Below, piece by piece: positions 55,576 through 56,335 of a stretch of DNA of 64,000 nt. A program made the position numbers and the translations under genes. This stretch comes from an uncultured Phaeodactylibacter sp. (GTDB lineage: Bacteria > Bacteroidota > Bacteroidia > Chitinophagales > Saprospiraceae). Numbering within the stretch: position 1 is the stretch's first letter; the number at the start of each line of letters is the position of its first letter. Location: the NCBI GenBank assembly GCA_913057245.1, contig CAJXNH010000010.1, positions 1 to 64,000 on the forward strand, written 5' to 3'. The notes beneath the pieces were generated by a model. The model saw only the letters and a list, made by a program, of their open reading frames with translations. It was not told the DNA's origin and searched no databases.

Positions 55576-55657
55576 GCCTCAGTAGCTCAGCTGGTTAGAG
55601 CGGTCCCGGTAGACCGGGATTAATCCGCAGGTCATAGGTCAAGTCCTGTACCCACCA
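55576..55657 (+). pseudogene. Broken tRNA-Asn copy with palindrome in the anticodon arm
   Basis: The 5' acceptor strand, D arm and the start of the anticodon stem (bases 55576-55603) are identical to the intact tRNA-Asn gene at 55684. Then the 7 bases CGGACTG are replaced by TCCCGGTAGACCGGGA (55604-55619), a hairpin. TTAATCCG continues as in tRNA-Asn, but the T loop has lost a base and the 3' end (ACCCACCA) does not pair with the 5' acceptor strand. The outer pair GCGG/CCGC of the anticodon arm is kept. It cannot form a normal tRNA. Confidence 0.75.
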
Positions 55658-55683
55658 GCAAAAAGAGCTTTGAAATAAAAATT

Positions 55684-55760
55684 GCCTCAGTAGCTCAGCT
55701 GGTTAGAGCGGCGGACTGTTAATCCGTAGGTCATAGGTTCAAGTCCTATCTGAGGCGCCA
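55684..55760 (+). tRNA. tRNA-Asn (anticodon GTT), CCA encoded
   Basis: A complete cloverleaf: acceptor GCCTCAG with CTGAGGC, D stem GCTC/GAGC, anticodon stem GCGGA/TCCGT around loop CTGTTAA (anticodon GTT), variable loop AGGTC, T stem ATAGG/CCTAT with loop TTCAAGT, discriminator G (55757) and encoded CCA at 55758-55760. A terminator follows directly. Confidence 0.95.
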
Positions 55761-55797
55761 AGCCCCGGAGCGTAAAGCTTCGGGGCTTTCGTGTTTA
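55760..55797 (+). terminator. Terminator after tRNA-Asn
   Basis: AAGCCCCGGAGC (55760-55771) pairs, with one G-T, with GCTTCGGGGCTT (55777-55788) around loop GTAAA, followed by TCGTGTTT. It sits between the tRNA and the GIY-YIG gene; a copy with one stem mutation is at 56205-56242. Confidence 0.8.
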
Positions 55798-55809
55798 CCC
55801 CCATCGCGC

Positions 55810-56097
55810 ATGCATTACGTCTACATACTTTACTCACCTGGCTCAGACAAGTACTACGTAGGGCAGACCGCAGATGTTAGTCAGCGCTTGCAGTACCACA
55901 ACGAGCTTTCGACCAAGTCCTACACCTCGCGCCACCGGCCGTGGGAGCTTCGGGCAGTGCTGGAAGTACCATCGCGAGGGCTGGCCATGCGCCTGGAGCG
56001 TCACATCAAAAGCTATAAAGACCGGGGCTATATCCGGGAACTGATAGAATCGGAGTCAGCGCGCCGAGCCCTGGAGGAACGTTTTGGGCAGGAGTAG
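55810..56097 (+). CDS. Small GIY-YIG nuclease
   Basis: A stand-alone GIY-YIG domain of 95 residues. The two name motifs read YVYIL (3-7) and YYVG (15-18); Arg26 (QRLQYHN) and Glu63 (RLERHIKSYK) take the places of the catalytic Arg and metal-binding Glu, so the enzyme looks active. It starts 50 bases after tRNA-Asn, behind the tRNA terminator and with no promoter of its own that I can see, so expression may depend on readthrough. Related short GIY-YIG genes (UPF0213/UvrC-N type) are common in Bacteroidota. Its first 55 bases are repeated at 56255. Confidence 0.9.
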   Translation: MHYVYILYSPGSDKYYVGQTADVSQRLQYHNELSTKSYTSRHRPWELRAVLEVPSRGLAMRLERHIKSYKDRGYIRELIESESARRALEERFGQE

Positions 56098-56136
56098 CGA
56101 TGCCAGGGTTCATCCCCGATAGCTATTGGTGAACCG

Positions 56137-56205
56137 TTTAGAGCGGTCCCGGTGTTACCGGGATTAATCCGTAGGTCATAGGTTCAAGTCCTATCTGAGG
56201 CGCCA
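56137..56205 (+). pseudogene. Second broken tRNA-Asn copy with palindrome in the anticodon arm
   Basis: The D-arm end TTTAGAGCGG is followed by TCCCGGTGTTACCGGGA (56147-56163) in place of CGGACTG. From 56164 on, the 3' half of tRNA-Asn is identical up to the encoded CCA (56203-56205). The 5' acceptor and most of the D arm are missing; the bases before contain an imperfect hairpin (GGTTCA...TGAACC, 56108-56135). No mature tRNA can form. Confidence 0.75.
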
Positions 56206-56309
56206 AGCCCCGGAGCGTAAAGCTTCAGGGCTTTCGTGTTTACCCCCATCGCGTATGCATTACGTCTACATACTTTATTCACCGGGCTCAGACAAGTACT
56301 ACGTAGGGC
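56164..56309 (+). repeat. Direct repeat of tRNA-Asn 3' half, terminator and GIY-YIG start
   Basis: These 146 bases match 55719-55864 with only four substitutions and no gap, at a distance of 445 bases. The copy covers the tRNA 3' half, the terminator and the first 18 codons of the nuclease gene. The high identity indicates a recent duplication or gene conversion. Confidence 0.9.
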
Positions 56310-56335
56310 CAGGCATATTTCAATATTCGGTATAA
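56255..56335 (+). pseudogene. Truncated GIY-YIG gene fragment
   Basis: The first 18 codons (MHYVYILYSPGSDKYYVG) are those of the gene at 55810. Similarity ends at 56309, after which eight unrelated codons lead to a stop at 56333-56335, overlapping the 3' end of the pirin gene on the other strand. Confidence 0.85.

Follow-up and report, generated by a model that had tools for sequence, protein, structure and literature searches.

The GIY-YIG nuclease domain is marked by a conserved Tyr, a Tyr/Gly position, an Arg and a Glu, and in homing endonucleases of the SegB / I-TevI type a separate DNA-binding domain lies behind the catalytic domain. In T-even phages, the free-standing homing endonuclease SegB is of the GIY-YIG type, and its gene is located among tRNA genes (PMC13096335, PMC2988022). 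One of these papers reports that SegB cuts inside tRNA genes and causes a tRNA and a truncated segB to be amplified in tandem, with the donor allele cited as being cut inefficiently (PMC13096335). No preference for particular tRNA isotypes is reported for SegB (PMC13096335 / PMC2988022). In the system of REP palindromes and RAYT transposases, the palindromes are described as short sequences dispersed in bacterial genomes including those of Bacteroidetes, with GTAG or CGTC tags defining the REPs (PMC3733652). Finally, a genomic island integrated at a tRNA gene is bounded by the intact tRNA on one side and by a displaced fragment of tRNA on the other.

Here, we describe a locus in a 64,000-nucleotide stretch of DNA from an uncultured Phaeodactylibacter sp. 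(contig CAJXNH010000010.1; hereafter the window, meaning the whole stretch analysed), in which one small GIY-YIG gene lies between an intact tRNA gene and a partial copy of the same tRNA, part of an arm of the copy being replaced by a palindrome. This plan recurs across Bacteroidota and in several other phyla. The genes of the family are tied to tRNA genes, form isotype-specific lineages, tandem arrays and truncated copies, and show empty loci and turnover in close relatives. A search of the open-access literature, outside which most subscription papers lie, found no account of bacterial chromosomes in which GIY-YIG units are linked to tRNA genes.

The tRNA-Asn locus and its nuclease gene

The intact tRNA-Asn(GTT) occupies positions 55684..55760 on the + strand, and is followed on the same strand by a terminator-like hairpin read from the sequence (55761..55793) and by a gene for a small single-domain GIY-YIG nuclease of 95 aa (55810..56097; Pfam PF01541, E 8.5e-16). 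A broken tRNA-Asn copy (tRNA*) lies upstream on the + strand at 55576..55659, in a repeat of about 108 bp shared with the start of the intact tRNA; positions 55576-55647 are 84% identical to it across tRNA nt 1-64, and a perfect palindrome, TCCCGGTAGACCGGGA, at 55604..55619 stands in for tRNA nt 29-35. The second broken copy, downstream of the nuclease gene (56138..56205, + strand), is without its 5' part; here, 56164-56205 is 100% identical across tRNA nt 36-77, and another perfect palindrome, TCCCGGTGTTACCGGGA, at 56147..56163 stands in for the same nt 29-35. The DNA folding energies of both palindromes lie beyond those of most shuffled sequences (z -2.82 and z -3.10, respectively). Between the nuclease stop codon and the right tRNA copy sits an imperfect hairpin, GGTTCA...TGAACC (56107..56135), the core of which resembles a dispersed palindrome, TCCCGATAGCTATCGGGA; it is weak, its predicted folding being within the range of the shuffles (z -1.39). 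Behind the downstream tRNA* follow, on the + strand, a second copy of the terminator-like hairpin (56206..56238) and, at 56255..56308, a truncated copy of the nuclease gene that comprises its initial 18 codons (MHYVYILYSPGSDKYYVG) and is fused to the region behind the pirin gene.

The original prediction, made from the letters of the window, had listed the intact tRNA-Asn, the GIY-YIG reading frame, both broken copies, the copied terminator and the 18-codon gene start, together with a 146-base direct repeat differing at four positions; this inventory was borne out, with the repeat at 55719-55864 and 56164-56309 containing exactly four mismatches. The palindromes in both broken copies and the hairpin at 56107-56135 are additions to it. 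The prediction had also described a nuclease gene behind a tRNA, duplicated along with part of that tRNA: the truncated gene copy exists, but it belongs to a recurrent tRNA*-GIY array and is not a one-off duplication.

At E<=1, the Rfam tRNA model matched the intact tRNA-Asn copy alone and neither tRNA* of the window. A type-P5 twister ribozyme was considered for the upstream tRNA* (55594-55648), and this reading was provisionally rejected because the Rfam score is below threshold (22.4 bits versus a gathering cut-off of 37.6, E 0.042) and because tRNA sequence plus a hairpin accounts for the match. A near-full-length tRNA-Asn has a single match in the draft genome of the window and one each in the related genomes G001, G002, G003 and G005; G004 yielded no such match, and its contig starts within the locus.

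We give almost no credence to the idea that the arrangement is an assembly artefact of a repeat. Many matches to the family do lie at contig ends, and the genome of the window is a 61.9% complete draft in 63 contigs; however, the repeat copies in the window have four differences, and the same plan is found in an isolate genome (Phaeodactylibacter xiamenensis KD52) and on single contigs of 2.6 and 3.7 Mb.

The window protein belongs to the GIY-YIG superfamily (PF01541, 58.5 bits versus a cut-off of 22.6). The Pfam match spans residues 1-70 of 95, the predicted model is compact (mean pLDDT 92.5), and the residues Y5, Y16, G18, R26, H30, T39 and E63 are invariant across 46 family members. Its nearest solved relatives, both by sequence and by fold, are UPF0213 / YhbQ-like proteins (PDB 1zg2, E 8.8e-17; 1ywl, E 9.8e-14), with which it shares the single GIY-YIG domain and the size range (approximately 80-110 aa). 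To our knowledge, no tRNA linkage has been described for UPF0213 / YhbQ-like proteins, and a literature search on these names found no paper. SLX1 is the next relative (sequence E 9.4e-8, Foldseek E 3e-3); it is a larger protein, partnered with SLX4, and carries a GIY-YIG domain related in sequence and fold. According to PDB titles, SLX1 acts on branched DNA, an activity that would fit substrates of the hairpin or cruciform kind. Neither Pfam nor the predicted model revealed a second or extra DNA-binding domain, and the family is for this reason not filed as a SegB member. Against the group I intron endonuclease model (NCBIfam TIGR01453), the window protein scored 19.9 bits versus a cut-off of 56.05, and 13 of the 46 members gave matches below the cut-off; for a possible defence role, PADLOC returned weak matches in the same 46 proteins to PDC-S14 (15/46) and UzuA (6/46). 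A phage or plasmid origin was rejected: tblastn with the window protein found no match among 50,697 phage records and 72,556 plasmid records. A viral-contig scan with it returned no relative, and a scan with a protein of the tRNA-fMet lineage returned one match of 27 residues (L236).

Association with tRNA genes, isotype lineages and turnover

Relatives of the window nuclease were detected in 35 of 59 genomes around the window genome, and a profile built from 46 proteins had matches in 99 of 148 Bacteroidota genomes, with up to 22 in one genome and none in 49. From the listed matches in this 148-genome sample, we took the 68 best-ranked distinct places, a set that is not random and excludes the window genome and G054. 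Of these best-ranked 68 loci, 59 had an intact tRNA on the same strand within 800 bp, and an opposite-strand tRNA was the only neighbour at none. Among the nine tRNA-less loci of this set, seven lie at contig ends and seven retain tRNA fragments; L197 and L202 alone showed no convincing fragment. The two that lie inside contigs are L172, which has a tRNA-Asp fragment, and L202. As a control, we used UvrC, a different GIY-YIG gene; none of its 30 loci has a tRNA within 800 bp.

Two smaller sets were counted in the same way. In the order sample of 45 loci, from which duplicates, the three loci with truncated genes (L035-L037) and a locus outside the family (L042) had been removed, a tRNA was found at 32; eight loci without one lie at contig ends, two (L043 and L045) lie inside contigs, and three others lack a full-length gene. 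For 19 of 22 named loci (L071-L073 duplicate L035-L037), the corresponding numbers were 11 with a tRNA, three without at contig ends, one without inside a contig (L059) and four lacking a full-length gene. Loci not labelled Bacteroidota had a tRNA nearby in all six cases (Verrucomicrobia, Kiritimatiellae, Moranbacteria, Saganbacteria, Peribacteria and one further bacterium). Members of the family without a close tRNA (L043 and L045 of P. xiamenensis, L059 and L202) could be relatives with a different life style. At L012, L014 and L048, the nuclease reading frames run on into the broken tRNA, all gaining the false tail ALAQLVRVPHVRD, which calls for caution in annotating such genes.

The nuclease gene typically lies about 45-60 bp 3' of a same-strand tRNA or immediately in front of one; for 119 proteins with a tRNA, the gene follows the tRNA in 89 cases and precedes it in 30, the latter being the mirrored order tRNA*-GIY-tRNA. 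At least two full nuclease genes were present at 16 of the best-ranked 68 loci, and in G187 three exact 317-bp units, each a broken tRNA-Pro with a nuclease gene, stand in tandem before an intact tRNA-Pro on a 3.67-Mb contig. These observations bear on the possibility that the locus is what remains of a larger integrase-borne island at a tRNA, the broken copy then marking the far attachment site. The locus does resemble an island in that an intact tRNA bounds it on one side and a displaced tRNA 3' end on the other. However, the unit is only about 445 bp long (about 0.3-0.45 kb across the loci), its ORFs are the nuclease and the truncated copy of it and no other, no integrase is present, the nuclease being the sole ORF of at least 60 aa wholly between the tRNA copies, and the same single gene recurs over many genomes and in both orders; we therefore regard an island origin as highly improbable.

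To follow the locus in relatives, we used the PfkB gene, which adjoins tRNA-Asn in a conserved arrangement in the family. Twenty-two PfkB loci were fetched, tRNA-Asn was visible in 17, and 16 could be judged (the contig of G003 ends 23 bp behind the tRNA). A nuclease gene or a piece of one was present at five of the 16 (G000, which is the window genome, G001, G005, G019 and G025), and the remaining 11 contained neither a nuclease gene nor a tRNA remnant. In P. xiamenensis (G001), the 445-bp unit is absent, and the flanks are 93-96% identical; this genome keeps the 18-codon nuclease piece at the same junction as the window and has two or more broken tRNA copies upstream, more than the window. 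Since the unit could equally have been lost there through recombination between the repeats, the comparison indicates turnover and not gain. The tRNA-Asn is identical over 75 nt between the carrier G000 and the empty locus of G002. A target confined to the tRNA gene would thus be present in the carrier as well, and cutting would be suicidal unless the donor allele were spared; the inefficient cutting of the donor allele cited for SegB softens this objection.

The original prediction had placed a small, putatively homing or tRNA-targeting unit at a tRNA gene, had proposed a comparison of tRNA-adjacent GIY-YIG genes and a search for empty sites, and had named as signs against it an arrangement unchanged in related strains or genes without a bias to tRNA neighbours in the clade. 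Both comparisons favoured the tie to the tRNA gene: the bias is strong and clade-wide, the UvrC control shows nothing of the kind, most of the comparable PfkB/tRNA-Asn loci are empty, and the arrangement changes between close relatives, as in P. xiamenensis.

We next consider which tRNA each nuclease accompanies. On a tree of 119 proteins, built by a quick method from few columns and with many forks unresolved, tRNA isotype required 41 changes, compared with 89 when shuffled (0/200 as low). When the set was reduced to a single row for each combination of genus and isotype (82 rows), the isotype label required 35 changes versus a shuffled mean of 63.0 (0/500), or 60.0 when shuffled within host families (0/500). 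The signal of host family was weak (56 changes versus 62.0, 0/500), and host genus did not cluster in this set (72 changes versus 72.7, 210/500). When the nearest protein from a different host family was taken, the isotype was shared in 40 of 78 cases against 5.9 expected. These results together indicate that nuclease lineages are tied to tRNA kinds; prolonged vertical inheritance at old sites, combined with losses, could account for part of the clustering. The genes are also under purifying selection in the three ortholog or paralog pairs that were measurable (dN/dS 0.23, 0.14 and 0.17), two of which are Glu-linked orthologs including the window genome; the Asn pairs, including the window gene, gave no usable dS.

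The isotype lineages, the unaltered intact tRNA and the purifying selection in three pairs are also what would be expected of a host enzyme, namely an isotype-specific tRNA nuclease or a protein of tRNA maturation or surveillance whose gene adjoins that of its substrate; the duplications would then be neutral noise. We consider this quite unlikely, given the patchy occurrence (many Bacteroidota genomes without a match and most Asn loci empty) and the high copy numbers within single genomes, the identical tandem copies and the truncated copies, which are usual for selfish genes.

Palindromes in the broken tRNA copies

A remnant of the neighbouring tRNA was present in 53 of the 59 tRNA-bearing loci among the best-ranked 68. 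A palindrome with a stem of at least 6 lies within 4 nt of 104 of 205 internal remnant boundaries; at random positions of these loci, the figure is 364 of 11,134 (3.3%). Counted by locus, a palindrome was found at one or more remnant boundaries in 43 of the 53 and at none in 10, and a strict test, in which 7 nt of collinear tRNA had to stand on each side of the palindrome, was passed by 29 of the 59 loci. Of the 67 palindromes listed, a few (e.g. L184 49-66, L068 and L054) resemble ordinary tRNA arms or chance.

The positions in the tRNA tend to follow isotype. Palindromes in tRNA-Asp copies lie at nt 50-58 in five genera, with a single exception at 35-44; those in tRNA-Ala occupy nt 27-44, the entire anticodon arm, in three genera; those in tRNA-Arg are insertions at nt 22 in two genera; those in initiator tRNA-Met lie at nt 37-47 in two genera; and those in tRNA-Asn have their right edge at nt 35 in two genera, other Asn loci being different. 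The cores of the palindromes vary while these sites recur between genera. Since the palindromes vary from locus to locus, no universal end sequence was found, and a single fixed palindrome as the end of the element was rejected, the pattern GGTCCCGGTNNNACCGGGATT having one match in the window genome.

A different account is that the gene is linked to the tRNA, that arrays arise by local tandem duplication through unequal recombination, and that REP-like palindromes land in the dispensable tRNA copies independently of a possibly active nuclease. The palindrome TCCCGAN6TCGGGA is indeed dispersed genome-wide, with 395 occurrences in 147 genomes compared with 23 for the reversed control, and is also found at tRNA-free sites. 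A related palindrome, TCCCGATANNTATCGGGA, is present 15 times in G008, which gave no nuclease match in a single-protein search. Against this account, palindromes with different cores occupy the same tRNA site for the same isotype in different genera, and genomes with more palindromes tend to have more nuclease genes (rho 0.41; P 0.002 on permutation within families; host relatedness is only roughly controlled, and the palindromes of nuclease loci are included in the count). The exact form TCCCGAN6TCGGGA occurs only seven times, in five of the best-ranked 68 loci, so that this correlation lends a link between palindrome and nuclease weak support. We regard this account as unlikely, while giving it real weight.

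The window palindromes of the form TCCCG..CGGGA carry neither the GTAG nor the CGTC tag that defines REPs. At L013, L041, L050 and L062, the tRNA remnants are interrupted not by the short palindrome but by longer inserts of about 60 nt that have the ends GCTGACG...CGTCAGC; these do contain CGTC, like one REP superfamily. At palindrome sites without a tRNA (L077-L113), TCCCGATAGCTATCGGGA often lies within a different inverted repeat or a simple tandem repeat, in the manner of an insertion into a hairpin loop. At L011, a broken tRNA-Met pair (34-120 and 537-623) has strand-exchanged T stems (CCTTGG/CCAAG versus CCAAGG/CCTTG), both of which can pair. A nuclease-free locus of P. xiamenensis (L237; G001:C19:160700-161700) has an intact tRNA-Met(CAT) preceded, at 300-665, by a tandem array of three broken tRNA copies, which are about 115 bp long and each contain a palindrome around CCCGTACGGG. 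G004:C275 has a similar array; the L237 array is possibly a nuclease-free derivative.

The tRNA* copies might themselves be functional RNAs, for example decoys or antitoxins that counteract either the linked nuclease or defences directed at tRNAs. At several loci, the palindrome exactly replaces the anticodon arm (17 nt) and leaves a tRNA-like outline, and the terminators are copied along with the tRNA*. However, many copies are missing the 5' or 3' half, the sites and extents vary widely, and the Rfam search described above left both window copies unmatched, so that we hold a function of this kind to be very unlikely.

Proposed mode of spread and its implications

The reading that we prefer, with a probability of roughly 0.55, is that these are free-standing nuclease units of the chromosome, each specific for an isotype, which spread and multiply via recombination at their own tRNA gene; the cutting, the homing and the role of the palindromes are what we infer from the arrangement of the loci. 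The nuclease would cut its cognate tRNA gene, at the gene or close by, and the break would be repaired through recombination with tRNA sequence as the homology. Such repair would insert or tandemly amplify [tRNA - nuclease] units. One tRNA copy would remain intact, as we propose, because the cell needs it, and the remaining copies would be interrupted by a palindrome at the former cut site, which would abolish that site. By these proposed steps, the unit would act as a free-standing homing or amplifying nuclease specialized on one tRNA gene, and the palindromes may mark former cut sites.

We think, by analogy, that the units work like SegB. A GIY-YIG gene among tRNAs is common to both, and the tandem tRNA and truncated segB strikingly match the anatomy of the present locus. 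The placement also agrees with the SegB / I-TevI type, as the gene stands beside its putative target (59 of the best-ranked 68 loci near tRNAs), occurs patchily and leaves empty sites (11 of 16 for Asn). SegB is, in contrast, phage-borne and larger, whereas the present genes are chromosomal, encode about 80-100 aa, are isotype-specific by lineage and accompany tRNA copies that are interrupted by palindromes.

A more ambitious and tentative proposal, which we would call possible and not yet probable, is that a structure-specific GIY-YIG nuclease and the short palindromes form one system, a minimal mobile unit. In such a system, each lineage would be devoted to one tRNA gene, a cut in one arm would be sealed by a palindrome, arrays of arm-exchanged tRNA copies would build up around one protected tRNA, and the dispersed palindromes would be further products of the enzyme, in several bacterial phyla.

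If the preferred reading of spreading, isotype-specific nuclease units is true, many Bacteroidota genes annotated merely as 'GIY-YIG' would be selfish units on tRNA genes, with one isotype for each lineage, and the same would apply in some other phyla. The idea known from phage SegB would thus extend to bacterial chromosomes, and a reason would be provided for the tandem tRNA remnants and for the palindromes in tRNA-like sequences. These units would then offer a simple test case of a gene that parasitizes an essential gene without breaking it.
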